Made by a program: the position numbers and the translations under genes. A stretch of DNA of 19,934 bases from Candidatus Uhrbacteria bacterium RIFCSPLOWO2_02_FULL_49_11 (GTDB taxonomy: Bacteria > Patescibacteriota > Patescibacteriia > 2-02-FULL-49-11). The notes under the pieces were generated by a model that did not search any database, was not told the origin of the DNA, and saw only the letters and a list, made by a program, of their open reading frames with translations. Positions 3,979 through 19,077 of this stretch are shown one piece after another (within the stretch, counting starts at the first letter, position 1; the number at the start of each line of letters is the position of its first letter). The stretch lies in NCBI GenBank assembly GCA_001791465.1, contig MGER01000062.1, positions 1 to 19,934 on the forward strand, in the 5' to 3' direction.

Positions 3979-5109
3979 ATGGGGCTATTTGCGAACAATG
4001 AGCATTATTTGGGCGTAGACATCAGTTCTACAAACATAAAAGCGGTGGAATTGAGGAATGAACGCGGACGGGCTCGTTTAATCACCTACGGTTTCGTGGA
4101 ACAATCGACTGACCTTGTGAAAGCAAGTTCCGAGGAGATGAAGAAGCAAGTCATCAGCCTTCTCCAGGCGGTGCTTGAGAAAGCAAAGACCACTACGAAG
4201 AAAACAGTCGCCGCGCTCCCGAATTATTCAGTCTTCAGCTCCATCATGAGTTTGCCGCAGATGTCGCAGAAGGATCTCACCCAGGCGGTGCAGTGGGAAG
4301 CAAAGAAAATTGTGCCGCTTCCCATTGATGAGATGATCATTGATTGGAAAGTGTTGCCGGAGGGAAGCAGGCCTCCAGCGCCTCCTCCCTTTCAATCGCC
4401 TTCCGCGCCAAAGGCTTCCGTGCCGCCGGAAGGGGATGCAGCGCCTTCTCCAAGACTCGAGGAGAAACAAGGGAATGCCCGCATTTTGCTTACCGCCGCG
4501 CCGAAAAATTTGGTGGAACGTTATGTGGCGCTCTTTAAAGCGGCAGGTCTTGAGCTCACAGGGCTCGAGACGGAGTCATTTGCGCTAGAGCGATCGCTCG
4601 TGGGGAACGATCCCAACCCGATCATGATTGTCGATATTGGGGCGCTCACTTCGAACATTATTGTGGCAGAGAAGGGGATTCCTCTTCTTAACAGGAGTGT
4701 TGATGTGGGGGGCGCTTCCATTACCAAAATGATCGCCGGGAGCCTCGGGGTGGATACGATGCGCGCGGAACAGTTTAAACGTGATATCGGCTTTACGAGC
4801 CAAGGGGACGGCGGTATTTTGAAGACCATTGAGTCTAGCATCAATCCCATCATCAATGAACTGAAGTATTGTTTTGATCTTTATCGTTCCCAGGAAGGAA
4901 TAGGGCATGTTTCAAAGATTATCCTTACCGGTGGGTCGGCGTTTCTGCCGGGCTTGTCTGATTACCTTTCGCGCTTGCTCTCCATCAAGGTGTTCGTGGG
5001 CGATCCGTGGGCGCGCGTGATTTATCCGACGGAACTCCGCCCCGCGCTCGAAGAGCTCGGGCCGCGTTTTTCGGTCGCGATAGGACTGGCGATGAGGGAG
5101 ATATCGTGA
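3979..5109 (+). CDS. pilM: Type IV pilus assembly protein PilM
   Basis: A 376-aa actin-like ATPase of the PilM/FtsA superfamily. The N-terminal phosphate-1 motif YLGVDISSTNIKAVEL (about 10-25), the second phosphate motif IMIVDIGALTSNIIV (about 216-230) and the adenosine motif ILTGGSAFLPGL (about 314-325) are all visible. In characterised pili PilM is cytoplasmic and binds the N-terminal INLLP peptide of PilN, linking the alignment complex to the motor. A proline-rich insertion at about 130-165 (PPAPPPFQSP and onward) interrupts the region between the first and second halves; this is not in well-studied homologues and resembles the low-complexity part of PilN next door. The gene is first in the plus-strand locus and has its own strong promoter. 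Confidence 0.95.
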   Translation: MGLFANNEHYLGVDISSTNIKAVELRNERGRARLITYGFVEQSTDLVKASSEEMKKQVISLLQAVLEKAKTTTKKTVAALPNYSVFSSIMSLPQMSQKDLTQAVQWEAKKIVPLPIDEMIIDWKVLPEGSRPPAPPPFQSPSAPKASVPPEGDAAPSPRLEEKQGNARILLTAAPKNLVERYVALFKAAGLELTGLETESFALERSLVGNDPNPIMIVDIGALTSNIIVAEKGIPLLNRSVDVGGASITKMIAGSLGVDTMRAEQFKRDIGFTSQGDGGILKTIESSINPIINELKYCFDLYRSQEGIGHVSKIILTGGSAFLPGLSDYLSRLLSIKVFVGDPWARVIYPTELRPALEELGPRFSVAIGLAMREIS

Positions 5110-5225
5110 AATGTCAAATGTCAAAGTTCAAATGTCAAATGGAGGTCAAATTTCAAAATCAAAATTTGATATTGGAATTTTGGATTTTATTTGAACTTTG
5201 AACTTTGGATTTTGGTTTTTTCAAA
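5110..5225. repeat. AT-rich palindromic repeat between pilM and pilN
   Basis: The whole pilM-pilN gap consists of short, repeated units (TGTCAAA, AAAGTTCAAAT, AAAATC) on the left and their complements (ATTTGAACTTT, GGATTTTGG) on the right. An exact 11-bp inverted pair is at 5123-5133 and 5189-5199. It would fold into a long imperfect hairpin in the transcript. It resembles the repeats at 7441, 9405, 11155 and 16458 in design, though the units differ. Confidence 0.8.
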
Positions 5226-5231
5226 CTCCCC

Positions 5232-6344
5232 ATGTTCGACGACATTGATTTCTTATCTCCCCAATCGGAGAAAGGCAAGCCTCGGCGTCGTCTCCCTACG
5301 AAGCAGGAGATTGATTTAAAGTACCCGAACGCGCATAAATCTGCGCCATTCCTGCACACGCTCAAAGCGTTGTTTAAGGGTTTGCGCCGTCCTTCATTGA
5401 AAAAATCTCATCCAACCCCCGCGCCGCGCATTGCCCCTGAACCGGAAGAGCCTATCCGCAAAATAAAACTTCCGCCCCCTCCCCGCGCCCCGCGCCCCGC
5501 GCAGCCAAGCGCTCTCGCGATATTTGTCCATAAATTTTTTGTCCGGAAACCAAAACTGCCATTACCCCCTGCGCCGGCATTAAAACAAAAAGCGGAACAA
5601 AAACCTCCATCCCCGTCCGCTCCATCGCCTTCATCAACACCGCCAATAGTTCCTCTCCCCGCCCCTCTTGTGGCGTCTTCCCCGCTACTCCTTCGCCCTG
5701 AGCCGCAGTCTGCACCACCCTCCCCAAAAAATGCCCCGCTTTCGACACCGCTGGAGGAGAAAAAATCCACACTGGTAGACGTGAATTTCCTGCCTTCCCA
5801 TGGGCGGAAGAATATAAGCTTTGAAAATCTCGTGACTTTATTTATGGGGGCAGGCATGCTTATTGTTTTTGTGATGGGGGGCGTCACGGTATGGTACCGG
5901 TATCGCGCGAGCACACTTGAGCGCGATATCCACATGAAACTGCAGGAAATATCAGGCCTCGAGCGCGACCTTGGCATACGCACGGATGTTTTGAATCGCG
6001 CATTGGTATTCCATGAAAAAAGCAGAGCGGTGGGGGCATTGCTCAAAAAACACACACACTGGCTGAAACTACTCGCATTTATCGAACAACACACTTCTCA
6101 AGAATTATTTTATGATTCGTTTTCTGCAAGCCCCGACGGCACCGTAAATTTGAAGGCGCAAGCAAAGAGCTACACGGCAGTTGCCGAACAAGTGATCAGT
6201 TTCGCGCGCGTCCCGGAAATCACAAAAATAGTCGTGTCGCCCGTCGAAGCAAAGGACAAGAGTGAGGTTGGCGATAAGACGGTGATTGTTGATTTCGTCT
6301 TATCCGTTGATCCGAATATTATTTTACCCGCCTCGAAGCCCTAG
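5232..6344 (+). CDS. pilN: PilN-like pilus assembly protein with long proline-rich N-terminus
   Basis: A 370-aa protein if read from the ATG at 5232. An in-frame TTG at 5205 would add nine residues encoded by the palindromic repeat, so I prefer the ATG. The PilN core occupies the C-terminal half. It contains a cytoplasmic VDVNFLP motif (about 182-188), the equivalent of the INLLP peptide that PilM binds, then one membrane segment (about 200-222), a coiled stretch, and a ferredoxin-like periplasm-side domain. PilN alone is usually near 200 aa; here about 180 residues precede the core. They are rich in proline, alanine and lysine (PPPPRAPRPAQP and similar) and probably disordered. PilN pairs with PilO, encoded 12 bp downstream. 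Assignment rests on position, motif and topology. Confidence 0.85.
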   Translation: MFDDIDFLSPQSEKGKPRRRLPTKQEIDLKYPNAHKSAPFLHTLKALFKGLRRPSLKKSHPTPAPRIAPEPEEPIRKIKLPPPPRAPRPAQPSALAIFVHKFFVRKPKLPLPPAPALKQKAEQKPPSPSAPSPSSTPPIVPLPAPLVASSPLLLRPEPQSAPPSPKNAPLSTPLEEKKSTLVDVNFLPSHGRKNISFENLVTLFMGAGMLIVFVMGGVTVWYRYRASTLERDIHMKLQEISGLERDLGIRTDVLNRALVFHEKSRAVGALLKKHTHWLKLLAFIEQHTSQELFYDSFSASPDGTVNLKAQAKSYTAVAEQVISFARVPEITKIVVSPVEAKDKSEVGDKTVIVDFVLSVDPNIILPASKP

Positions 6345-6356
6345 TGCCATTATCAC

Positions 6357-6992
6357 ATGTCTAATCCGATAATCACTTCAGTCCCTTTAGATCGGTCAAC
6401 GCGCGCTTTTATTGAGAAGCATCTTTTAATCATTGGTACTGGCGCACTTATAGCGCTCGCGCTTTTAGGCTGGTTCCTTGCGGCGCGCCCCGCCCTCAGG
6501 GCGTATCAGCGCGTGAGCGAAACCTCTTTGTCGGATTTAGATCTCCGTATAGAAGAGCGGCGCAGCAGCCTAAAAAAAGCCCAGCGTATTGAGGAGCAAT
6601 TCTCGCAAATTACCCCTGAAGATTATGAAAAGTTGAGCGACGCGCTGCCACCCGAGCCCGGCGCTGCAGATCTTATACCCAATATAGAGTCTATCGTGAC
6701 CTTGAGCGGATTGACACTTGAATCCGTGTCAGTGGCGCAATCCTCTGACATCCAAGCGGTAGCGCCCCCGGATACTGCGGCGGTTTCCGCATTGCCCGTG
6801 AATGTCCATCCGCTCTCGGTGAGTTTTCGGGCGAAAGGCAGCAATTACCTTACCTTTAAGGAACTATTACATCGCATAGAAACAAATCTCCGACTTCTTG
6901 ATGTGCCGTCGATTTCGTTCAATCCGGAAGATGAGATGATACAAATGAGCGTGAGCGCGTATTATCAGCGTACTCCCGGTGTTCAGAAGTAG
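6357..6992 (+). CDS. pilO: PilO-like pilus assembly protein
   Basis: A 211-aa bitopic membrane protein with a short cytoplasmic N-terminus and one transmembrane helix (about 22-46, LLIIGTGALIALALLGWFLA). A coiled-coil segment follows (about 60-85), then a C-terminal domain with the PilO-like pattern (LSVSFRAKGSNYLTFKELLHRIETNLRLLDV). PilO normally forms heterodimers with PilN and joins the extracytoplasmic face of the motor to the rest of the machine. The family is poorly conserved in sequence, and here the call rests on topology, length and the place directly after pilN. The start ATG is 12 bp after the pilN stop and has no clear Shine-Dalgarno, suggesting coupled translation. Confidence 0.85.
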   Translation: MSNPIITSVPLDRSTRAFIEKHLLIIGTGALIALALLGWFLAARPALRAYQRVSETSLSDLDLRIEERRSSLKKAQRIEEQFSQITPEDYEKLSDALPPEPGAADLIPNIESIVTLSGLTLESVSVAQSSDIQAVAPPDTAAVSALPVNVHPLSVSFRAKGSNYLTFKELLHRIETNLRLLDVPSISFNPEDEMIQMSVSAYYQRTPGVQK

Positions 6993-7006
6993 AAATATTT
7001 TTTTGA

Positions 7007-7115
7007 GTATGCCCGCCTAAATTTTGTCACACCTTTCGCGGGCGACGGCCTTATACCATTGAAACGGAAAATTATGAAAAAATGCGCGGATTACGTGCAA
7101 AACTTAGGCGGGTAT
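7007..7115. repeat. 109-bp element with inverted ends, copy 1 (before the PilP-like gene)
   Basis: The left end GTATGCCCGCCTAAATTTTG is the near-complement of the right end CAAAACTTAGGCGGGTAT. A matching element of 108 bp lies at 11254-11361 before pilC with the same ends and a diverged but alignable interior. In both, the ATG of the following gene lies in or at the edge of the right inverted end. No ORF fits inside, so any movement would need an outside enzyme. Confidence 0.8.
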
Positions 7116-7440
7116 GTTAGTTGAACGGCAAGCATCACGGCGGAAACATATCACTATGTTGGCGGCGATCGTGTTCGTCAACAGCGTAGTGGGGTACCTG
7201 CTGTATCAAAATTTTTTTCACACCAAGAGCGCGCCCCGTGTGCAAGAAGCGCCCATCGTTTCCGCCACGCCTTCGAAAGTGAGCGCGGCGATCGCGGCCG
7301 TGGAGACGCTCGCGGGGAGCTTAGACCGCTCCGTCATAGAAAGCGAAGAGTACCGGTCGCTTCAGAAGTACGGAACCTGGCCGCTTGAGGAAGCCCGCAC
7401 CGGCAAGGTGAATCCATTTATCCCGGCGTTTGGACCATAG
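7114..7440 (+). CDS. Small bitopic membrane protein of the pilus locus, PilP-like position
   Basis: A 108-aa protein with a basic N-terminus (VERQASRRKH), one transmembrane helix (about 14-33) and an extracytoplasmic tail of about 70 residues. The tail ends GKVNPFIPAFGP. The NPF-P ending and the place straight after pilO recall PilP, the partner of PilN and PilO, or minor alignment-complex proteins. However, PilP is normally a lipoprotein and this protein has no lipobox cysteine. I therefore call it PilP-like by context only. Its ATG is inside the right end of the repeat element at 7007-7115, so the repeat shapes its translation start. Another possibility is a lineage-specific pilus component. 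Confidence 0.75.
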   Translation: MLVERQASRRKHITMLAAIVFVNSVVGYLLYQNFFHTKSAPRVQEAPIVSATPSKVSAAIAAVETLAGSLDRSVIESEEYRSLQKYGTWPLEEARTGKVNPFIPAFGP

Positions 7441-7670
7441 TATATAATAAATCCCAAACCCCAATTTCCAATGACCAATGAAATCCAAAATCCCAATACT
7501 CAAAATTGGACATTTGCCTGCCCGCCATAGCCTTACCCTGAGGAATGGTTGATGATAAAGGCTAGCGCACACCCTTACAACAATACGTTCATCAATGACA
7601 GGCGTTGGCAGGCGGGGATTTTGAGCTTTATTGGGAATTGGGATTTGGTTATTGGGATTTTACAATAAGG
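7441..7670. repeat. AT-rich palindromic repeat before pilB, split by a nested element
   Basis: The left arm (about 7449-7512) is built of AAATCCCAA, CCAATGACCAATG and AAATCCAAAATCCC. The right arm (7618-7670) has the complementary TTGGGAATTGGGATTTGG type. Positions 7618-7662 match 11202-11246 over 45 bases with a single difference (7650), which proves these are copies of one element. The two arms are separated here by the element at 7516-7617, whereas the 11-kb copy has no such interruption. Confidence 0.85.
7516..7617. mobile_element. 102-bp MITE-like element nested in the repeat (CCTGCCCGCCATAGCC family)
   Basis: The left end GCCTGCCCGCCATAGCC and the right end GGCGTTGGCAGGCGGGG are imperfect inverted repeats. 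Both ends recur, in reverse orientation, in the element at 13509-13611. The interior has no ORF and is hardly alignable between the two copies. Comparison with the uninterrupted repeat at 11155-11252 shows that it splits that repeat; ATTT occurs on both sides. It may be a non-autonomous mobile element, but no transposase in the window can be linked to it. Confidence 0.6.
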
Positions 7671-7671
7671 T

Positions 7672-9402
7672 ATGTCTCGCAGAGAACAGCCGAAAACCGA
7701 GTTTTTAAAAAGCCTTCTGCAGGAGAAGGCTATTACGCTTGATGCGTATCAGCAATTGATTAAGGAAGAAACCATCGATGCGGTGGAGGGCATCCTAGCT
7801 GCGCAAAAGGGGATACCCGAGGAGGTATTGGCTCGAGCGCGAGGTAAAGCGTTTGGGTTTCCGTATGAGGATCTCATCGGCCGCAAGATAGACCAGAAAG
7901 TGCTGAAAAATATACCCCTTGAGTTTGCGTCTCATTACCAAGTCGCGGCGTATGACCTCAAAGGGGATACGCTCTCGGTCGCGCTCATCAATGCGACTGA
8001 TTTGAAAGCCCAGGAAGCGGTGGAATTTTTAGTGCGCGAGAGAGGTTTAAAGGTTCATTATGCGATCACCACCCCGGACGCTTATCAAGGAGTTATAAAA
8101 CAATATGGGAGCCTCGGGATCGAAGCAAAAGAAGCTTTAGATGTCGCGGCCGGCAAATTTGCGCCGACAACGAAGGAAAAAATGGAGGGCATGGAGGAGG
8201 TGGTGAAATCAGCGCCGGTATCAAAGATGCTTTCGGCGATATTGAAGCACGCGGTAGAAGCAAGAGCCTCCGATATCCATATAGAGCCTGTATTTAATGA
8301 AACCCGCGTGCGGTACCGCATTGACGGCGAGCTTCACACCTCGCTCGTGCTTCCCAAGTATATTCATTCCGCGATCGTCTCGCGCGTGAAGGTGCTCGCG
8401 AACTTGAGGATTGACGAAACTCGCGTGCCTCAAGACGGCAGAATCCGCCTTGAGATTGAGGGAAGGGAAATAGACTTCCGCATATCCACCCTGCCGCTCT
8501 ATAGCAATGAAAAAGTAGTGATGCGCATCCTCGACACCGCGGAAGGCGTGCCGACGCTTGAAGGCTTGGGGTTTGAAGGGAAAAACATTGCCGTGATGAG
8601 AGACAACATCGATAAGCCGCACGGCATGTTTCTGGTTACGGGACCCACGGGAAGCGGTAAATCCACCACCCTTTATGCGATCCTCAATGTGCTCAATAGC
8701 GAAGGGGTGAATATTGTCACTTTGGAAGATCCTGTGGAGTATTACCTGAAAGGGATCAATCAATCCCAGGTGCGCCCCGAGGTGGGGTTCACGTTCGCTT
8801 CAGGGCTTCGTTCCATTTTGCGGCAGGACCCTGATACGGTCATGGTGGGGGAAATTCGCGATAATGAGACGGCGGAGCTTGCCATCCATGCCGCCCTGAC
8901 AGGGCATATCGTGCTTTCCACGCTCCACACCAATGACGCGTTTGGCGCCATTCCGCGTTTTATTGACATGAAAGTGGAACCATTCCTTATCTCGTCCACG
9001 CTTAACGTGGTGGTAGCCCAGCGCTTGGTGCGGAAAATGTGCCAGTTTTGCAAAGAGTCTTTGGAGGTCCCTGACACGCTCGTGCAAGAAGTGCGGAAGG
9101 AGCTCGAACCGGTCCGCGCGAGCCTTCCCGAGAGTGTAAAGCTCGATGCGCCATTGACGTTTTGGAGGGGGAAAGGGTGCCAGCGGTGCAACGGGGAGGG
9201 GTACGCGGGACGGACTGCCATCGGCGAGGTGTTGGGCGTAAATGAAGAGCTGAAGACGATTATCGCCAATGGCGCAAAGTATGACCAGATTCGAGACGCA
9301 TTCAATCGGCAGGGGATGCTCACCTTGAAGCAGGATGGCATCATGAAAGCGATTGCGGGTTCCACGACCATTGAAGAAGTGTTGAGCGCGACGAAAGAAT
9401 AA
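7672..9402 (+). CDS. pilB: Type IV pilus extension ATPase PilB (GspE family)
   Basis: A 576-aa secretion ATPase with intact motifs. An N-terminal T2SSE_N domain (about 10-150) is followed by the arginine-bearing N2 domain (RASDIHIEP...RYRIDGELH, about 198-222). The core has Walker A GPTGSGKST (324-332), Asp box LEDPVEY (351-357), Walker B DPDTVMVGE (386-394) and HIS box AALTGHIVLSTLHTNDA (407-423). A zinc-binding tetracysteine motif (C457, C460, C503, C506) marks PilB/GspE and is absent from PilT. It powers pilin polymerisation from the cytoplasmic face through PilC. The ATG follows AAGG directly, closer than a normal Shine-Dalgarno, and is preceded by palindromic repeats. It should be the active motor of the locus. 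Confidence 0.97.
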   Translation: MSRREQPKTEFLKSLLQEKAITLDAYQQLIKEETIDAVEGILAAQKGIPEEVLARARGKAFGFPYEDLIGRKIDQKVLKNIPLEFASHYQVAAYDLKGDTLSVALINATDLKAQEAVEFLVRERGLKVHYAITTPDAYQGVIKQYGSLGIEAKEALDVAAGKFAPTTKEKMEGMEEVVKSAPVSKMLSAILKHAVEARASDIHIEPVFNETRVRYRIDGELHTSLVLPKYIHSAIVSRVKVLANLRIDETRVPQDGRIRLEIEGREIDFRISTLPLYSNEKVVMRILDTAEGVPTLEGLGFEGKNIAVMRDNIDKPHGMFLVTGPTGSGKSTTLYAILNVLNSEGVNIVTLEDPVEYYLKGINQSQVRPEVGFTFASGLRSILRQDPDTVMVGEIRDNETAELAIHAALTGHIVLSTLHTNDAFGAIPRFIDMKVEPFLISSTLNVVVAQRLVRKMCQFCKESLEVPDTLVQEVRKELEPVRASLPESVKLDAPLTFWRGKGCQRCNGEGYAGRTAIGEVLGVNEELKTIIANGAKYDQIRDAFNRQGMLTLKQDGIMKAIAGSTTIEEVLSATKE

Positions 9403-9404
9403 GC

Positions 9405-9530
9405 CTTGGGAAAACCCAATGACAAAATCCCAATGACCAATCAAATCCCAATTCCCAAATGATCAAATTTGGGCATTGGGGCTTCGCGTATTGATTGGGT
9501 ATTGGGTATTGGGATTTGGGATTTATAGCA
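9405..9530. repeat. AT-rich palindromic repeat after pilB
   Basis: The gap between the pilB stop and the next ATG (9533) is filled by AAATCCCAA/CCAATGACCAAT units, then the complementary TTGGGCATTGGGG, GATTGGGTATTGGG and GATTTGGGATTT units. It is the same family as the repeats at 7441 and 11155. The stop and the next start flank it closely, so nearly the entire gap is the repeat. Confidence 0.85.
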
Positions 9531-9532
9531 TT

Positions 9533-9943
9533 ATGTCCAAACGCCTTACCCATCACGGTTCAGTGCTCGTGATCGCCCCTGCGCTTTTGCAGCCCGCCTA
9601 CCGTCGGTATGAGGCTCCGCAAGGCGCCGTGCGCTATGCGGCGAGCATTGGCGAAGCTTTGCCCATACTTGCGCATGAACATATTGCGGCAATCGTGTAC
9701 CATGAACATGAAGCTCAAATCGAAATGGGGAGATCGCTCGCTCATTGGTTTGCCAACGTGCGAGGCGCCGCCCCGCTGCTCGCAGTGGTTGCAGGGTTGG
9801 ACAATGCGGCAAGCCTGCATTTGTCAGTGTTGCAGCCATACGCGTCCATGGTATTCAGCAAATATCACCACAGGCCGGACGAGGTGATTGCCATGGTGGT
9901 GGAAAATTTTGTGAGCACAAGGAAAAAGAAACAAAAGCCGTAA
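9533..9943 (+). CDS. Small protein, possibly a degenerate receiver (CheY-like) domain
   Basis: A 136-aa soluble protein between pilB and the PilT-like gene. The ATG at 9533 is preferred to an upstream GTG-type start at 9476, which lies in the repeat. I do not recognise it firmly. The order of predicted strands resembles a response-regulator receiver domain: GSVLVIAP (b1), AVRYAAS (b2), IAAIVYHEHEA (b3), PLLAVVAG (b4), then SMVFSKYHHRPDEVIAMVVENF as b5-a5 with the conserved-position lysine. The acidic pair after b1 and the phosphate-accepting aspartate after b3 are missing (P/A and H instead), so it could not be phosphorylated in the usual way. The tail is lysine-rich (TRKKKQKP). It may be a pilus regulator; an unrelated small alpha/beta protein is also possible. 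Confidence 0.6.
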   Translation: MSKRLTHHGSVLVIAPALLQPAYRRYEAPQGAVRYAASIGEALPILAHEHIAAIVYHEHEAQIEMGRSLAHWFANVRGAAPLLAVVAGLDNAASLHLSVLQPYASMVFSKYHHRPDEVIAMVVENFVSTRKKKQKP

Positions 9944-10022
9944 TAAGAAAAGTATAAAGTATTTATATTTAATTGTATCAGCATTTCAATCCTTCTCACT
10001 TAGAAGATATCCCCTCACGTGT

Positions 10023-10043
10023 CCCCTCCTTAGTAAGGAGGGG
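10023..10043. repeat. GC-rich hairpin before the PilT-like gene
   Basis: CCCCTCCTT and AAGGAGGGG form a perfect 9-bp stem around AGT. There is no T-run after it, so it is a poor Rho-independent terminator, and it lies within a gap of 129 bp between two genes of the same strand. It may affect relative expression or be another palindromic repeat. Confidence 0.6.
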
Positions 10044-10072
10044 ATGGGGTGGTTTCCTTAATTTATTAAAAA

Positions 10073-11149
10073 ATGTCTTCCCAAACAGACGTGCTTTTCC
10101 AAAGAATCCTAGCCTCCGCCGCGGCGCGGGGCGCTTCTGACGCGCATCTGACCGTCGGGCAGCCGCCTGTCGTGCGGGTGGATGGGAGTTTAAGCCCTCT
10201 CGAGGAAGAGGGCGTGCTTGCCCCCGCGACCATGGAAGAGCTCGTCGTGCTCCTCTTTGACGAGCACGCGCGGCAGGAGCTTGCCGTGAAGCGGAGAGCG
10301 ACTATCGCGAGAACCTATGGCAGCCGCGTGCGGTTCAAGGCTTCGGTCATCTACCAGCAGGGATTTCCTTTTATTTTCCTCCATTTTCTCTCTCCTGTCA
10401 TAAGAACATTGAAAGAGTTAGGCCTTCCGAAAGTGGTAGAAGAGCTTACCTTCATGCGCAAAGGGCTCATTATCGTCACCGGTCCTCACGGATCAGGGCG
10501 ATCCACCCTCATTGCGTCGTTTTTGAATACGATAAATACGAACCGGCCGGAGAATATAGTCACGATTGAGCACCCGATTGAATACGTATTAACCGGCGAT
10601 AAGAGCGTCATTGAGCAACAGGAATCGGGGAGGGATGTGCTAAGCATGCTTGAGGGATTGAAGGCCCTGAAGGATGAGGACGTCGACGTGCTTGCGGTGT
10701 CCGAAATATCGGATCGGTTCGTATTTGAGGAGCTTATCAATATCACGGAGGGCGGGCGCCTTGTGGTGGCGCCGCTTGATGCGGAGACATTATCCCAAGC
10801 GTTTGAGCATATCGTTGAATCGTACGCCGCGCACGAGCGCGAACGGATCTGCCATAGCCTTGCGGACAACCTTGTGGCGGTGATCGGGGTGCGGCTGGTG
10901 CCGCGCGTGGGGGGCGGTCGGATATTGGTGGTTGAGGTGCTCGTCGTTTCCGCGCCGGTAAAAGCGCTCATCCGCGACGGGCGCTTCAGCCAGATCAGTT
11001 CATGGGTGCTGACTGCGCGGGAGGGCGGCACGGTAAGCCTTGATCGCTCGCTCGCGGAACTGGTGAAAACAGGCGAAGTGCTGCTTGAGGATGCGCTGCG
11101 GGAGGTGTCCGATAAGGAAAATTTCCAAAGAATGGTAAAGGGAAGCTAG
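10073..11149 (+). CDS. PilT-like ATPase with degenerate catalytic motifs
   Basis: A 358-aa protein clearly of the PilT/VirB11 family. It has the PilT N-terminal PAS-like region (RGASDAHLTVGQPPVVRVDG, 19-38), a P-loop segment and a PilT-like C-terminal domain, and it lacks the tetracysteine motif of PilB. PilT normally drives pilus retraction. Here several motifs are changed. Walker A reads GPHGSGRST (137-145) with arginine (R143) for the invariant lysine. The Asp box is IEHPIEY, with histidine for aspartate. Walker B is DVDVLAVSEIS, keeping the glutamate but losing the GE(M/I)RD signature. The HIS box AIRAALTGH...TLHT is replaced by EELINITEGGRLVVAPLDAET. The frame is open and full length, so it is a diverged protein and not a pseudogene. 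It may be a regulatory or structural partner of PilB. Confidence 0.88.
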   Translation: MSSQTDVLFQRILASAAARGASDAHLTVGQPPVVRVDGSLSPLEEEGVLAPATMEELVVLLFDEHARQELAVKRRATIARTYGSRVRFKASVIYQQGFPFIFLHFLSPVIRTLKELGLPKVVEELTFMRKGLIIVTGPHGSGRSTLIASFLNTINTNRPENIVTIEHPIEYVLTGDKSVIEQQESGRDVLSMLEGLKALKDEDVDVLAVSEISDRFVFEELINITEGGRLVVAPLDAETLSQAFEHIVESYAAHERERICHSLADNLVAVIGVRLVPRVGGGRILVVEVLVVSAPVKALIRDGRFSQISSWVLTAREGGTVSLDRSLAELVKTGEVLLEDALREVSDKENFQRMVKGS

Positions 11150-11154
11150 TTTGA

Positions 11155-11252
11155 AAAATCCAAAGTCCAAATAAAATCCAAAAACCCAATGTCAAATTTG
11201 GATTTTGAGCTTTATTGGGAATTGGGATTTGGTCATTGGGATTTTATACAAG
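11155..11252. repeat. AT-rich palindromic repeat before pilC, uninterrupted copy
   Basis: The left arm (CCAAAGTCCAAATAAAATCC...ACCCAATGTCAAAT) and right arm (11202-11252) form an imperfect palindrome. The right arm matches 7618-7662 at 44 of 45 positions. It abuts the element at 11254. Confidence 0.85.
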
Positions 11253-11253
11253 G

Positions 11254-11361
11254 GTATGCCCGCCTAAGTTTTGCGGGCGCCAGACAAGATATGGATTGGT
11301 CGAGTATGATTATTACTGAAAAAATAATGCACCACATCAGGTGCAAAATTTAGGCGGGTAT
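11254..11361. repeat. 108-bp element with inverted ends, copy 2 (before pilC)
   Basis: The ends GTATGCCCGCCTAAGTTTTG and GTGCAAAATTTAGGCGGGTAT are inverted repeats matching the element at 7007-7115. The interior shares blocks with copy 1 (CGGGCG, GAAAAAATAATGC-like, GTGCAAAA) but is diverged. The ATG of pilC (11360) lies in the right end. It is placed immediately next to the AT-rich repeat at 11155-11252. Confidence 0.8.
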
Positions 11362-12562
11362 GTTTTACGATTTTAAGGCAAAAGACGCAGAGGGGAAGGA
11401 CATCCAGGGGGTGGTCGAGGCGCAGTCTGAACAAACTGCGCAGGAAGCGCTGGAAGAACGCTCACTCATTCCGATCATGATCACGGCGCGGGCTACGGAA
11501 TCTAAACTGCAGACGTTCAAGCTGTTTGACCGCGTGAAGCCAAAGGAACTGGTGGTGTTTTTCCGTCAGCTTTCTACTATGTCTGCGGCGAACCTTCCCA
11601 TCGTGGCGGCGCTGCGCATCCTCATTAAGCAAACAGAGAGCCAGAAGCTGAAAACCATTATCTCCGAAATCGCGGATGAAGTGGACGGAGGCGCGCGGCT
11701 TTCGCAGGCATTCGCGCGGCACCCCGACGTGTTCAATAATTTTTACGTAAACATGGTGCGCTCCGGCGAAACCTCGGGGCACCTCGATGAAGTGCTCTCG
11801 TACCTCGCGGATCAGCGGGAGAAAGATTACGACCTTATGAGCAAGATCCGCGGCGCGATGATTTATCCCGCGTTCATCCTTTCCGCGCTTTGCGTGGTAG
11901 GCGTTATTATGATGGTGTTTGTCGTGCCGCGGCTCACTTCCATACTCACCGAAACGGGAGGAGAGCTCCCCTTGGCGACAAAGATCCTTATAGGCACGTC
12001 GGGCTTCATGACCAAGTTTTGGTGGCTGCTCTTAATCTTCGTGGTCGGCGCGGTCGCAGGGCTGCGTTTTTCTCTCAAACAGCGGCCGGTGCGCCGTTGG
12101 TGGGATTGGATGAAGATCAAGTTGCCAGTTTTCGGGAAGCTCTTCCAGCGCATTTACATTATCCGCTTTACGCGCTCCATGAATACGCTCTTGAAAGGAG
12201 GCGTGCCGCTTCCGCACGCGCTCGAGATCACCGCCGAGGTGGTGGGAAGCGCAGTGTATCGCGACCTTATATTGCGCACCGTAAAACAGGTGCAGGACGG
12301 GAATCCGATTGCGGTCGAATTTGTCAACAGCCCGGAAGTGCCTGTCATGGTGTCGCATATGCTCTCGGTGGGCGAGACCACTGGCCAGCTGGAGCAGATC
12401 CTGGACCGGCTTACCCAGTTTTACGCCAGAGAAGTAGACAACCTTGTGTCCAACCTGGTCTCGCTCGTGGAGCCGCTTATCATGATCCTCATGGGCCTTG
12501 CGGTAGGCGTCATGGTCGCCGCCATTATCATGCCAATGTACAACCTGGCGTCCTCGCTCTAG
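11360..12562 (+). CDS. pilC: Type IV pilus inner-membrane platform protein PilC
   Basis: A 400-aa GspF/PilC-family protein of normal length. It has two copies of the T2SSF domain. The first (about 65-190) carries FFRQLSTMSAANLPIVAALR and the second (about 270-390) the matching IRFTRSMNTLLKGGVPLPHALE. Each is followed by the family pattern (VRSGETSGHLDEVL and LSVGETTGQLEQIL). Membrane segments are at about 165-190, 215-235 and 368-395. PilC sits in the cytoplasmic membrane and passes rotation or force from PilB to pilin. The start is the ATG in the right end of the preceding element; the N-terminal MFYDFKAKDAEGK agrees with the family, supporting this start. It ends the motor part of the locus, with the prepilin 271 bp downstream. 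Confidence 0.97.
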   Translation: MFYDFKAKDAEGKDIQGVVEAQSEQTAQEALEERSLIPIMITARATESKLQTFKLFDRVKPKELVVFFRQLSTMSAANLPIVAALRILIKQTESQKLKTIISEIADEVDGGARLSQAFARHPDVFNNFYVNMVRSGETSGHLDEVLSYLADQREKDYDLMSKIRGAMIYPAFILSALCVVGVIMMVFVVPRLTSILTETGGELPLATKILIGTSGFMTKFWWLLLIFVVGAVAGLRFSLKQRPVRRWWDWMKIKLPVFGKLFQRIYIIRFTRSMNTLLKGGVPLPHALEITAEVVGSAVYRDLILRTVKQVQDGNPIAVEFVNSPEVPVMVSHMLSVGETTGQLEQILDRLTQFYAREVDNLVSNLVSLVEPLIMILMGLAVGVMVAAIIMPMYNLASSL

Positions 12563-12724
12563 ACGCAGATGTACGCCGGAACGCTTCGGGAACTGACAAT
12601 AATACTTAAGCGTCGCGATCAAGCAGTTGATGCGCCTTTCCGCCTCTGCCGGCTGTTCCCTCGCTTTTCAAAGTATGGTCAGTGAGTAATTACTTAATCC
12701 GTGCTGTGATTTATAACAATATTA

Positions 12725-12733
12725 TGGTATAAT
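12725..12733 (+). promoter_or_regulatory. Extended -10 promoter for the prepilin gene
   Basis: TGGTATAAT gives a perfect TATAAT at 12728-12733 with the extended TG. No good -35 lies at the right distance, which is common for extended -10 promoters. Transcription would begin near 12740 and give a leader of about 94 nt. A separate promoter fits the high demand for major pilin. Confidence 0.65.
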
Positions 12734-12756
12734 GTGGATAACTTAAAAGGTCGAAT

Positions 12757-12777
12757 ATGAAAGTTAAAGAGCGGTGA
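12757..12777 (+). CDS. Possible 6-codon leader peptide (MKVKER)
   Basis: AAAAGG at 12745-12750 stands 6 nt before an ATG that opens a 6-codon frame ending in TGA. The second half of the frame lies in the 5' strand of the hairpin at 12765-12793. Shine-Dalgarno-like spacing is better here than at the prepilin start, which has none. Too short to judge by coding content. Confidence 0.25.
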   Translation: MKVKER

Positions 12778-12793
12778 GGTACCTCGCTCTTTA
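12765..12793 (+). promoter_or_regulatory. Hairpin in the prepilin 5' leader
   Basis: TAAAGAGCG and CGCTCTTTA form a perfect 9-bp stem around an 11-nt loop with GAGGTACCT. It starts about 25 nt after the predicted transcription start and ends 40 nt before the prepilin ATG. No long T-run follows, so a stabilising or regulatory hairpin is more likely than a terminator. Confidence 0.55.
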
Positions 12794-12833
12794 TAGAAGC
12801 AAAAACGTCTTACATAAAAACTAATTTTATTCC

Positions 12834-13274
12834 ATGCGTACACGAAAAGGTTTTACTCTTATTGAATTGCTGGTGGTCATTGCGATCATCGGCTTGCTCG
12901 CAACCCTTGCGGTGGTGGCATTGAACAACGCCAGGGCAAAATCACGCGACGCCAAGCGCGTCTCCGACATCAAACAAGTCCAGACGGCGCTGGAGCTCTA
13001 CTATTCAGACCAGAATGGGTATCCCGTAATGGGGCAAACAGGCGTACTTGGAGTTGGTCTCCAGTGTCTTGGTACAGGAGCTTTTGGCGTATTAGGCGGG
13101 ACAGCGTGCGGCGGAGCATATATGGGCTTAATCCCGTCAAACCCGACGCCAAACGGTATGGCATATACCTATGGAGGAGCTTCCAGTTCATATACAATTA
13201 CTTTCAGCATTGAGAGCGGCACCGGAGGATTGGGTGTGGGCGCGCATACTGCAACGCCAAGCGGCGTACAGTAG
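12834..13274 (+). CDS. pilA: Type IV prepilin, probably the major pilin
   Basis: A 146-aa prepilin with a short class III leader (MRTRKG) before the cleavage site G^FTLIELLVVIAIIGLLA. The invariant glutamate at mature position 5 is present. The hydrophobic helix continues as a coiled stalk (NNARAKSRDAKRVSDIKQVQTALELYYSDQNGYP is the usual pilin/pseudopilin transition). Two cysteines (QCLG and TACGG, about 14 residues apart) could form a disulfide loop in the globular head, which is rich in glycine, serine and threonine. A prepilin peptidase must process it but is not in the window. Its own promoter and leader hairpin and the flanking terminator-like hairpin suggest separate transcription. It could be a minor pilin, but no other pilin is present here. 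Confidence 0.93.
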   Translation: MRTRKGFTLIELLVVIAIIGLLATLAVVALNNARAKSRDAKRVSDIKQVQTALELYYSDQNGYPVMGQTGVLGVGLQCLGTGAFGVLGGTACGGAYMGLIPSNPTPNGMAYTYGGASSSYTITFSIESGTGGLGVGAHTATPSGVQ

Positions 13275-16130: not shown

Positions 16131-16477
16131 GCGGGAATTTTTTTCAGCGCGTGTACGACATCGTGGCGCGCATCCCGCGAGGAAAAGTGGCGTCCTACGG
16201 GCAGATTGCGGCGCTTGCGGGCAATCCCCGCGCAGCGCGCGCAGTGGGTTGGGCGCTCCACGTGATGACGCCGGCGCAGTACCAGGATATACCGTGGCAC
16301 CGCGTCATCAATTCTCGCGGCATGATTTCCACCACCTGCCGCGAGCACCCCGCGAGCCTCCAGGTAGCACTTCTGCGCAAAGAAGGGATTGCGGTAATCA
16401 TGCGCCGCGACGGGAGTGGGTGGGTTGATTTAAAGAAATATTTGTGGCAATCTTATATCGTAAATTCTAAACTCTAA
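16127..16477 (+). CDS. Alkyltransferase-like (ATL) DNA repair protein, MGMT family
   Basis: A 116-aa protein matching the C-terminal DNA-binding domain of O6-alkylguanine-DNA alkyltransferase (FFQRVYDIVARIPRGKVASYGQIAALAG, and NPRAARAVGWAL). The active-site PCHRV is replaced by PWHRV (W57), the hallmark of ATL proteins. These bind O6-alkylguanine without repairing it and hand the lesion to nucleotide excision repair. GGAGG 8 nt before the ATG is one of the best Shine-Dalgarno sites in the window. The start overlaps the stop of the preceding gene (ATGA). The last residues (about SYIVNSKL) are encoded by the start of the palindromic repeat at 16458, so the original C-terminus may have been changed by it. 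Confidence 0.93.
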   Translation: MSGNFFQRVYDIVARIPRGKVASYGQIAALAGNPRAARAVGWALHVMTPAQYQDIPWHRVINSRGMISTTCREHPASLQVALLRKEGIAVIMRRDGSGWVDLKKYLWQSYIVNSKL

Positions 16478-16595
16478 GCTCTAAACCCTAAATAAATTCA
16501 AAATTCACAAAGATCTAAACCACAAACTCTTTGAATTTTGAACATTTGGATTTGGTATTTGTTTAGGATTTAGGGTTTGAAGATTTAGGATTTAT
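16458..16595. repeat. AT-rich palindromic repeat, TTTAGGG-type, after the ATL gene
   Basis: Left-arm units (TCTAAACTCTAAGCTCTAAA, CCCTAAAT) are complementary to right-arm units (GTTTAGGATTTAGGGTTTG, ATTTAGGATTT), with TTTGAATTTTGAAC in the middle. The arms share their units with the three insertions in the RNase P RNA gene. The left arm contains the ATL stop codon and the right arm runs to within a few bases of tRNA-Gly. Confidence 0.85.
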
Positions 16596-16600
16596 ATAAT

Positions 16601-16674
16601 GCGGGTATCGTATAATGGCAATACCTCAGCTTTCCAAGCTGGTGCCGGGGGTTCGATTCCCCCTACCCGCTCCA
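16601..16674 (+). tRNA. tRNA-Gly (anticodon TCC)
   Basis: A complete cloverleaf: acceptor GCGGGTA/TACCCGC, a D arm, an anticodon stem (TCAGC/GCTGG) with loop TTTCCAA, giving anticodon TCC, and a T arm GGGGGTTCGATTCCCCC. The discriminator T and CCA (16672-16674) are encoded in the DNA. A TATAAT at 16595-16600 touches the 5' end and would start transcription inside the tRNA, so the true promoter is probably further upstream, in the repeat. Confidence 0.95.
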
Positions 16675-16775: not shown

Positions 16776-16812
16776 GCATAGTGCCTTTCCAGGAAGGCAA
16801 GAAGGCCGCCCT

Positions 16813-16932
16813 CCGCTGTTTCACAGCGGGAAACTCTAAATGCGAAATCCTAAATTCTAAACTTGTTTCATCAATTCGAATTTGTTTAGGGTTTAGTGCA
16901 TAGAGTTTAGGTTTTCCACCGTGAGGCGGTGG
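16813..16932 (+). repeat. rnpB insertion A (extended P3)
   Basis: The outer hairpins CGCTG/CAGCG (16814-16828) and CCACCG/CGGTGG (16916-16932) flank GGAAACTCTAAAT and GAGTTTAGGTTTTCC arms. The same bases can instead pair across the insertion: 16813-16818 with 16927-16932, and TTTCA with TGAGG, into one long helix. It lies between P1 and the GAGGAAAGTCC segment. Confidence 0.8.
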
Positions 16933-17094
16933 GGGGAGGAAAGTCCGAGCACTCCCCAATATATTAGGGAAATAAGCAATCGCTAACAGCGATCGGGAGC
17001 AATTCGTACCTTACTCGATGTGTCGATATTTCGAAATGTCGATAAGGGTCAGCGGATGAAGCCCAGGGAAAGTGCAACAGAGACAATACTAACC

Positions 17095-17209
17095 CATTGC
17101 TTCGCAATGGGAAACTCTAAATCCAAAATCCTAAATGAATTGAGAATTGAACACTTGTTTTGTTTAGGGTTTAGCGCTTAGGGTTTAGAATTTCCACTGC
17201 GGAGCAGTG
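17095..17209 (+). repeat. rnpB insertion B (extended P12)
   Basis: CATTGCTTCGCAATG at the left and CACTGCGGAGCAGTG at the right flank arms GGGAAACTCTAAATCC and GTTTAGAATTTCC. The centre, with TTGAGAATTGAACACTTG and TTTAGGGTTTAGCGCTTAGG, is nearly identical to insertion C. It stands after CAGAGACAATACTAAC and before GTAAAAGGTGAAA, the site of P12. Confidence 0.9.
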
Positions 17210-17379
17210 AGTAAAAGGTGAAAAGCACCTTGGTGTATTTGTGGGCAGCAATGTTTACTGATGCTACAAGGTTCCGTACGCGGCGACGCGTATTGGTTGC
17301 AAACCCTGCTTGAGTGAAAGGAGAGAAACCTCCGTGCCAGTTCCGCAGCAATGCGGAACGCAGACAGATGGCCTTACCT

Positions 17380-17501
17380 CATTGCTTCGCAATGGGAAAC
17401 TCTAAATTCAAAATCCTAAATCCTAAATAAATTGAGAATTGAACACTTGTTTTGTTTAGGGTTTAGCGCTTAGGGTTTAGAATTTCCACTGCGGAGCAGT
17501 G
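17380..17501 (+). repeat. rnpB insertion C (extended P19)
   Basis: It has the same outer sequences as insertion B. It differs by one extra 7-bp unit of the TCCTAAA type and by two substitutions in the left arm. It lies between AGACAGATGG, which follows P18, and ACAGAACTCGGC, where a P19 helix occurs in some bacterial RNase P RNAs. Confidence 0.9.
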
Positions 17502-17523
17502 GTGACAGAACTCGGCTTACCAC

Positions 17524-17547
17524 CCTTCCTGGAAGGGTTTTGTTTTT
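17524..17547 (+). terminator. Rho-independent terminator overlapping rnpB P1
   Basis: CCCTTC and GAAGGG (17523-17537 region) can fold on themselves and are followed by TTTTGTTTTT. The same bases are the 3' strand of P1, so the terminator stem and the mature helix use one sequence. Confidence 0.65.
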
Positions 17548-17607: not shown

Positions 17608-17684
17608 ACTGGATTCCCGCCGGAGTCCCGCCTGCGCGAGGCCATGGTTTGCCCCGCACCGAGATGCGGGGCGGGAATGACAGT
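17608..17684. repeat. GC-rich palindromic repeat (GATTCCCGC...GCGGGAATGACA type)
   Basis: The ends ACTGGATTCCCGC and GCGGGAATGACAGT are inverted. Inside, GCCCCGCA (17651-17658) pairs with TGCGGGGC (17665-17672). Two upstream in-frame ATGs of the next gene (17644, 17677) fall in it, which argues against those starts. Confidence 0.7.
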
Positions 17685-17688
17685 GAAT

Positions 17689-19077
17689 ATGCGCAGATCA
17701 GACATTATCTTCACCGCCGCGCTCGTGCCCGTGGACTATATAGCCGTCGTGGGGGCCGCGTCGGCCGCTTACTTTCTTCGGTACGCGGAGTTTTTTCAGC
17801 GCGTGCGCCCCGTGGTATTCAATCTTCCCTTTCGCCAATATTTTCCTCTCGTACTGGTTATCGCTGCGGTCTGGATTGTGATTTTTGCTTTTTCCGGCCT
17901 CTATGCGATGAGGGAACGGAAGCTGTCCAATGATATCGCGCGGGTGGCGCTTTCATGTTCCACGGGCACGCTCGCGGTGGTGCTCGTGTTCTTTTTTTCC
18001 CGCGAGCTTTTTTCTTCACGGTTCATGATACTGGCGTCGTGGGGACTGGCGGTGATGTTCGTGCTTGTCGGGCGATTTCTCATGCGGATGTGCAAGCGTG
18101 CATATTGGAAGCGGGGAAAGGGGCTCCATGAAGTGGCCGTGGTGGGCGGTGATGCGACTGCGCGGGCATTGCTTTCCTCCCGATTCGGGTCATTATCAAG
18201 CGGGCACAGAATCGTGCAGCAGCTTCCGAGGTGGGACGAGGCGGGAGAGAGGGCGTTGCGCGCGTATGTGGATACGGGGCGCGATTTGGACGAACTGGTG
18301 CTTACGGACCCTAATATCAGCAGGGAACGCATGAAGTCGCTGGTTGATTTTTGCACCGCGCACCAAGTAGGATTTAAATATACCGCGGAGCTTTTGGGAG
18401 GGCAGAGTTCGAATATCGGCGTGGATCTCATTGGCGGCATTCCCATTGTCGAGGTGCGTGCCACGAGACTTGATGGGTGGGGAAAGGTGCTGAAACGGTT
18501 GTTTGACATGTGCGTTGCGTCCGTCGGGTTGTTATTGCTGGCGCCGATTACGGTGGTGGTGGGCGCGGCGATTGTTTTAGACAGCCGCGGCTCGGTGTTT
18601 GTGGGATTGGAGAGGATCGGCACGCGCAGGAGGCGGTTTATTCTTTATAAGTATCGCTCAATGGTCGCGGGCGCGCATGAGATGAAGGGGGAATTGGTCG
18701 CGCAGAATGAGCGCAATGACGGGCCGCTTTTTAAAATGAAGGACGACCCGCGCATTACCCGCGTCGGGCGGTTTTTGCGGCGTTCAAGCATCGACGAATT
18801 TCCGCAGTTGTGGAACGTATTGAAAGGCGATATGTCGCTCGTGGGGCCTCGGCCGCATGAGCCGCAGGAGGTGTCGCGGTATGAGACTCTGCAGAAAAGA
18901 TTGCTGACCATCCGCCCCGGCATCACCGGCATGGCGCAAGTCTCCGGCAGGACCGACCTCACGTTTGCCGAGGAATCGCGCATTGACATGCTTTATGTGG
19001 AGCAATGGTCTCTGCTTCTGGACGTCATTATTATGCTGAAGACGCCGTTTATCCTCATTAAAGACAGAGGAATGTAG
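17689..19077 (+). CDS. Polyprenyl glycosylphosphotransferase (initiating sugar-phosphate transferase)
   Basis: A 462-aa membrane enzyme read from the ATG at 17689. Four N-terminal hydrophobic segments are followed by a Rossmann-like region (EVAVVGGDATARALL) and then the C-terminal catalytic domain. That domain starts with KRLFDMCVASVGLLLLAPI (a membrane hairpin). It continues with FILYKYRSM, the acidic pair in DDPRITRVGRFLRRSSIDEFPQLWNVLKGDMSLVGPRP, and RPGITGMAQVSGR. This is the bacterial sugar transferase pattern (WbaP/WcaJ/EpsL type). It moves a sugar 1-phosphate from a UDP-sugar to undecaprenyl phosphate, the first step of capsule, O-antigen-like or glycoprotein glycan synthesis. The sugar cannot be told from sequence. 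Upstream ATGs would add residues encoded by a palindromic repeat, so they are not favoured; no good Shine-Dalgarno decides it. Confidence 0.93.
   Translation: MRRSDIIFTAALVPVDYIAVVGAASAAYFLRYAEFFQRVRPVVFNLPFRQYFPLVLVIAAVWIVIFAFSGLYAMRERKLSNDIARVALSCSTGTLAVVLVFFFSRELFSSRFMILASWGLAVMFVLVGRFLMRMCKRAYWKRGKGLHEVAVVGGDATARALLSSRFGSLSSGHRIVQQLPRWDEAGERALRAYVDTGRDLDELVLTDPNISRERMKSLVDFCTAHQVGFKYTAELLGGQSSNIGVDLIGGIPIVEVRATRLDGWGKVLKRLFDMCVASVGLLLLAPITVVVGAAIVLDSRGSVFVGLERIGTRRRRFILYKYRSMVAGAHEMKGELVAQNERNDGPLFKMKDDPRITRVGRFLRRSSIDEFPQLWNVLKGDMSLVGPRPHEPQEVSRYETLQKRLLTIRPGITGMAQVSGRTDLTFAEESRIDMLYVEQWSLLLDVIIMLKTPFILIKDRGM

Follow-up and report, generated by a model that had tools for sequence, protein, structure and literature searches.

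How the gene of an essential ribozyme can come to carry three long, related palindromes is the question raised by the rnpB gene of the window, i.e., the whole stretch of DNA analyzed here (19,934 nucleotides), which comes from the Uhrbacteria, a group of the Patescibacteria. The best reading, with a probability of roughly three in four (0.77), is that the three arms are members of a single palindromic family, non-coding and probably selfish, residing in helices of the ribozyme that tolerate changes in length. This reading draws on the position, relatedness and foldability of the arms, on their dispersed kin, on their variable presence in relatives and on the existence of kin in 16S and 23S rRNA genes. 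The inserts thus resemble parasitic DNA settling at points where a longer arm can be borne by a structured RNA.

When the window was searched with Rfam at default settings, tRNA alone was reported and rnpB was missed, since the match scores 84.9 bits and the gathering score is 100. At a relaxed threshold, a covariance match to RF00010 spanning 16911-17369 (model positions 19-313; E 4.4e-26) was obtained, revealing that the conserved type A core is present. In addition, the P1 arms (16784-16808 and 17513-17537) pair over 25 nt with 76% complementarity. The genome of origin (termed G000) is a MAG of 967 kb, comprising 78 contigs and 73% complete, in which a single rnpB was found; given this level of completeness, a second is possible. 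That the MAG is so divided, with repeats at some contig ends, and that the RF00010 score is below the cut-off could be taken as signs of an assembly artefact or of a decaying pseudogene. Either is highly improbable, given that this is the one rnpB found in the genome, that the core motifs are intact and the flanks unique, that the neighboring gene is conserved and that the same architecture is seen in other assemblies. Indeed, a sugar transferase gene also adjoins rnpB in a relative, G048 (41% identity over 189 amino acids). The features of the locus are listed in Table 1.

Table 1. Features of the rnpB locus and its surroundings; positions are those of the window.
Feature	Position	Strand	Basis or remark
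Intergenic copy of the palindrome without end hairpins, adjoining tRNA-Gly	16458..16595	.	fold z -7.38
tRNA-Gly (TCC), upstream of rnpB	16601..16674	+	
rnpB (type A RNase P RNA), enlarged, ~754 nt	16784..17537	+	RF00010 match and P1 arms
Insert A, P3	16813..16932 (120 nt)	+	end hairpins 16813-16829, 16916-16932; fold z -6.42
Insert B, P12	17094..17211 (118 nt)	+	end hairpins 17094-17110, 17194-17210; fold z -6.45
Insert C, P19	17379..17503 (125 nt)	+	end hairpins 17379-17395, 17486-17502; fold z -9.69
Sugar transferase gene, downstream of rnpB	17644..19077	+	Pfam PF02397

An earlier, sequence-only reading of this DNA had described three inserts of 115-122 bp with common ends. These were recovered by script, the spans in Table 1 each taking in about 7 nt of the outer helix strand per side; the ends common to the rnpB inserts are GGGAAACTCTAAAT and TTTAG..TTTCC, and two small hairpins of the GCTTCGC/GCGGAGC type flank every one of them. 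Folding, as that reading had proposed, gave energies that none of 200 dinucleotide shuffles equaled for any of the three (z -6.42 to -9.69), such that chance is excluded. The P12 and P19 inserts share 96% identity over 98 nt when aligned ungapped (90% counting gaps), with the P3 insert being only 59-64% identical to either. The arms themselves consist of degenerate tandem heptamers, such as AAATCCT/TTTAGGA. Across the 32 arms of the 16 hairpin-ended elements described below, bases seven positions apart match in 68% of cases, as compared to 32% in shuffles (z 24), and TRF likewise gives a period of 7. Neither the flanking hairpins nor the heptamers featured in the earlier reading, nor did the 23S rRNA element of this genome described below. 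The possibility that the inserts are introns was rejected, as no group I or group II intron covariance match was obtained for them within the window.

The placement of the inserts at P3, P12 and P19, also proposed earlier, fits, with P12 being supported by covariance alignment and P3 and P19 in part by position relative to motifs. The P12 insert falls between model positions 136 and 137. The local alignment starts within insert A, with the variable P3 stem of the model falling on the hairpin at 16916-16932, in agreement with P3, and the left half of this insert is not placed by it. The alignment stops short of insert C, which was assigned to P19 by motifs, being located after the 3' strand of P2 and before the conserved 3' end. 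Neither the covariance alignment nor the motifs placed a strongly conserved core motif inside any insert. The core motifs are intact, as had been claimed for the core, and the presence of core bases within the inserts, which would have spoken against insertion, does not hold by Rfam covariance alignment.

To place these arms in context, rnpB was considered across relatives. An RF00010 match was obtained in 52 of 57 genomes of a class sample, and helix lengths were taken from regular-expression anchors, which failed at 16 of 51 rnpB loci, leaving 35 genes measurable for P12 and 33 for P19. Median lengths were 34 nt for P12 and 40 nt for P19, with 100 nt or more being reached by P12 in 5 of 35 and by P19 in 7 of 33 genes; P12 measures 131 nt in G000 and 119 nt in G048. 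In the latter, P12 holds one member of the family and the stretch separating P4/P5 from P7 another, with P3 and P19 having none; the second of these sites is empty in the window's gene. One element each is held between P4/P5 and P7 by the rnpB genes of G008 and of a Terrybacterium, the last identified by motifs, with no Rfam match. Because the sites differ between relatives and P12 and P19 are typically short, the arms do not represent ancestral structure that has become fixed. Comparison with relatives thus finds the family at other rnpB sites or absent; together with the existence of intergenic copies, this removes the possibility of fixed ancestral arms with no intergenic counterpart.

The arms occur in many copies across G000, and the repeat is present in 12 of the 57 genomes of the class sample. 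The intergenic repeat next to tRNA-Gly, held earlier to consist of the same units as the inserts, is real, yet what it has in common with them is confined to the arms. Twenty dispersed places (17 in G000 and three in G048), drawn from matches outside rnpB and 23S rRNA genes, were examined. The repeat was visible at 19 of these, at some as a single arm; seeds revealed no repeat at the remaining place, L215. At the 19 copies, no GCTTCGC-type end hairpin was detected, either by reading or by script; one place (L209) has a different hairpin on its left, and at another (L223), GTTTCGC lies 11 nt beyond its end. Elsewhere in the window, intergenic palindromes of a sister type, AAATCCCAAA/TTTGGGATTT, were seen at 7449-7660, 9425-9524 and 11171-11247, among pilus-like genes. 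The surrounding cluster (3979-13274) reads like type IV pilus genes and includes a pilin-like N_methyl protein, identified by Pfam, at 12834-13274.

Mobilization as a REP-type palindrome by RAYT (Y1_Tnp) was considered. Y1_Tnp was detected in 9 of 10 element-bearing genomes, as compared to 1 of 10 hand-picked others, yet this enrichment shrank in a panel assembled with a different aim, where Y1_Tnp was present in 10 of 12 genomes with the repeat and in 25 of 45 without it, such that two repeat-bearing genomes have no Y1_Tnp. Moreover, the repeat was found in only 1 of 20 Y1_Tnp neighborhoods (2.2-3.4 kb), some 1 kb from the gene, and the Y1_Tnp gene of G000 is flanked by a different palindrome, GTAGCG..CGCTAC. 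RAYT as the mobilizer is thus not supported and seems very unlikely. The gene in question, RAYT-like, lies between these palindromes at about 1360-2015 of locus L183 (G000 contig 64), the 3' side being partly masked.

The search for hairpin-ended kin was extended beyond rnpB. Scanning the exact hairpin-plus-arm pattern over one genome per species (84,980 species) returned four contigs, namely, from G048, the Terrybacterium, Ca. Saganbacteria (inside 23S rRNA) and one chance match (L096), partnerless, in an apparent protein gene and dropped. A two-mismatch version scanned over 380 genomes of the class found 17 places, of which 10 were without a partner and dropped, the others representing seven palindromes (three in G000 rnpB, two in G048 rnpB, one in G080 23S rRNA and one in G297 16S rRNA). 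A scan of 379 genomes from the phylum, some of them shared with the class sample, found 20 places, 11 of them partnerless and dropped; the rest correspond to the three of G000, to elements in the 23S rRNA genes of G640 (two places, being the two ends of one element), G588, G519 and G669, and to one in the 16S rRNA gene of G468. The partner test covered 37 loci, that of insert C standing outside it. For G640, the two ends gave z scores of 2.9 and 2.8, no better than a chance match in an apparent protein gene (L104; 2.8); the element was kept because both ends fit the pattern and sit in 23S rRNA. In this manner, 14 hairpin-ended palindromes were found, all 14 in structural RNA genes (rnpB, 23S, 16S) and one outside the Patescibacteria, that of Ca. 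Saganbacteria, placed by NCBI in the Cyanobacteriota/Melainabacteria group. Two more, in the rnpB gene of G008 and in the 23S rRNA gene of G000 itself, were recognized by inspection, bringing the total, including the window's three, to 16 (seven in rnpB, seven in 23S and two in 16S rRNA genes). As such, the proposal that the palindromes have colonized only tolerant helices of the ribozyme is supported as far as rnpB is concerned, but was too narrow, as the family also occupies 16S and 23S rRNA helices. No sign of carriage by phage or plasmid was found; the exact pattern gave no match in viral contigs and a blastn search with 16800-17510 gave none against plasmids or against phages.

In E. coli numbering, the 23S rRNA elements replace 535-558, 1164-1185, 1704-1769 and 1707-1769, 271-292 and 267-304, and 1865-1873, and those in 16S rRNA replace 71-100 and 183-242. 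Among the helices concerned are presumably H25, H45, H63, H68 and h6, with 535-558 taken to be helix 25 and 1164-1185 helix 45. Empty counterparts of filled sites were identified. For the 16S rRNA element of G297, the corresponding site lacks an insert in a congeneric genome, G268 (25 nt between flanking matches, as compared to 186 nt in G297), and also in G080 and G008. For the 23S rRNA element of G080, three genomes of the same family, G186, G151 and G050, have an empty site; at this site, G000 has a longer hairpin without the repeat. At the 535-558 site in G202 (L120), where G080 has a hairpin-ended element, a different palindrome, CCCGGCACTTTG..CCAAAGTGCTGGG, was seen. On G000 contig 67 (L013), group I intron matches (2343-2584 and 2816-3054) lie just 3' of the 23S rRNA match.

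Comparison of the elements with one another gave 79% likeness between the two of G048 and 61% between the P12 elements of G000 and G048. The P3 element of G000 is no more like its siblings than it is like those of G048 (61%), and the G000 23S rRNA element is nearest to that of G080 (68%), with 41-47% likeness to the rnpB elements. Judged from these values, elements are not consistently most alike within one genome. Recent spread within one gene is shown by the sequences of one pair, P12 and P19 of G000, and likely for a second, the two elements of G048.

Other palindromes also occupy enlarged rnpB helices. In G041 (98% complete), P3 and P19 hold a palindrome of another sequence, unmatched in G000, that is found at only four places in the whole genome (E up to 0.001), two in rnpB and two in 23S rRNA (L229, 1945-2671). 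Of the latter, one lies just before GGTAGGGGAGCGTTCC, a position that we take to be H45, and the other about 600 nt later. The P19 palindrome of G031 recurs in 23S rRNA and at two further places. That in P12 of G046 has a second copy at the contig start, immediately ahead of this rnpB core, and is present at at least 36 other places, at least 30 of these being 94 nt or longer (40 of 66 candidates scored). In the first set considered (10 palindromes from eight genomes), these three had clear copies elsewhere, P19 of G028 and of G032 had weak ones (70-77 nt, 72-79%), and the other five had none of at least 60 nt. In a second set (14 helices from 10 genomes), another copy was found for P19 of G033 alone, about 400 nt upstream and, by length anchors, within the same rnpB. 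In total, among 24 enlarged rnpB helices of relatives, 18 lack any further copy of at least 60 nt in their own genome, and the case for repeat families is weakened by these mostly unique helices. In P12 of G056 rnpB (L084), a hairpin-palindrome-hairpin arrangement with reversed loops (GAA on the left, TTC on the right) and different arms was observed.

If S and S' denote the strands that pair in the outer helix, the left end hairpin of an element takes the form S-TTC-rc(S) and the right one rc(S')-GGA-S'. In the 16 elements, these hairpins are nearly all Watson-Crick paired (103 of 112 and 104 of 112 pairs). The outer helix comprises 86 Watson-Crick pairs, 18 G-U pairs and eight mismatches, as compared to 86, five and 21, respectively, in the mirrored inner helix, while the loop pairs comprise 33 Watson-Crick and 15 G-U pairs, with no mismatch. 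When positions were scored at which both end hairpins are Watson-Crick paired and the outer or inner pair is not, an outer G-U faced an inner A-C 14 times, the reverse occurred once and another combination once (p 0.0005); with three possible copies dropped, the ratio was 10 to 1 (p 0.006), these p values being weakened by kinship, as the pairs are counted in related sequences. Such a bias is expected if it is RNA that pairs S with S', the inner strands being the DNA complements of the outer ones. The asymmetry thus points to selection acting at the RNA level. The loops depart from the TTC/GGA scheme in 5 of the 16 elements, yet are in this sense in 11 and reversed in none. This bias is explained by RNA pairing, in which U-G is allowed and C-A is not, such that a fixed direction of insertion need not be invoked.

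Selection of this kind on the outer helices, together with the enlargement of P12 in both G000 and G048, would be compatible with the arms not being parasites but serving a function, as extensions of RNase P RNA specific to the lineage. Against this, the insert sites vary by genome, other palindromes occupy the same helices elsewhere, and the family is also found between genes and in rRNA; functional arms are therefore considered unlikely. For the selfish palindromic family, the following sequence of events is proposed. The element would be copied with the rnpB transcript and would fold as a long rod continuing P3, P12 or P19, leaving the core intact. RNA-level selection would maintain pairing, G-U included, in the outer helix and at the UUC:GGA step, while in the DNA the small end hairpins would be kept exact by a templated correction that acts on short inverted repeats. 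The rods would then either be kept or be clipped by RNase III, as in the intervening sequences (IVSs) of 23S rRNA, leaving the RNase P RNA in pieces. Trimming by RNase III is plausible.

Taken to its full extent, IVS-type processing would mean that RNase III excises the arms and that mature RNase P RNA functions in as many as four pieces, joined through core helices such as P1, P2 and P4. Like 23S rRNA IVSs, the inserts form stems and occupy variable helices of a structural RNA that is essential, as judged by alignment for P12 and by position for P3 and P19, and the long stems suit processing of the RNase III type. Two hairpin-ended kin, moreover, lie at the 23S rRNA sites 1164-1185 and 535-558, in helices named as IVS regions, helix 45 in PMC4990558 and helices 25 and 45 in PMC2801512. 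RNase III (PF14622) was found in 9 of 10 element-bearing genomes (18 of 20 genomes overall), but not in G000, which is 73% complete, and selection on the outer helix does not demand that the rod be removed. Unlike 23S rRNA IVSs, which are cleaved by RNase III, cleavage of the window's inserts is putative; the three sit in rnpB, with one more in the 23S rRNA of G000, and the family has intergenic copies. Full excision is accordingly rated as somewhat less than an even chance. Still more tentative is the wider notion that mobile palindromes with stable end hairpins form a class specialized for structural RNA genes, in which they would home to the tips of hairpins (in rnpB, 16S and 23S rRNA genes) and spread among these genes in a cell and between phyla, being tolerated because the host clips or bears the rods, such that some bacteria would run RNase P on several pieces of RNA.

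Heterocystous cyanobacteria carry heptameric STRR repeats in rnpB. The arms of the window's rnpB also have a period of 7, but their heptamers are arranged as inverted arrays, bounded by end hairpins. Rickettsia palindromic elements (RPEs) are selfish palindromes of about 100-150 nt described from intergenic DNA, functional RNAs and coding sequences (PMC4316617). The present family resembles them, by description, in size and in lying both between genes and in functional RNAs; unlike RPEs, which also enter coding sequences, its hairpin-ended copies were found in structural RNA genes only. In rRNA genes of CPR bacteria, insertions have been reported in 48% of 16S and 82% of 23S genes (Tsurumaki, 2024; PMC11270868), many being short, uncharacterized, without intron or ORF, located at IVS sites and suspected to be IVSs. 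These come from the same kind of bacteria and are likewise short and at IVS sites; the passages concerned link them neither to a repeat family nor to rnpB, and the words palindrom, hairpin and RNase P are absent from the main text. CPR RNase P RNAs have been described as diverged, with large helix extensions and scores below cut-off (Lui, 2021; PMC8172020), as is the case here, and the RNase P RNA section of that study does not trace the extensions to repeats. A literature search, from which most subscription journals fell outside, returned no title or abstract opening that links palindromic repeats to rnpB.

Two oddities of the Patescibacteria that have been described apart, namely, oversized RNase P RNAs and short rRNA insertions, are thereby linked by one likely cause, palindromic repeat families settling in the helices of structural RNAs. 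This helps explain the sub-threshold rnpB scores seen in such genomes and offers natural experiments on the load that an essential ribozyme can bear, with fragmented RNase P RNA being a prediction. At the same time, the mirrored G-U/A-C pattern provides a way of telling selection at the RNA level from correction of palindromes at the DNA level using sequence alone.
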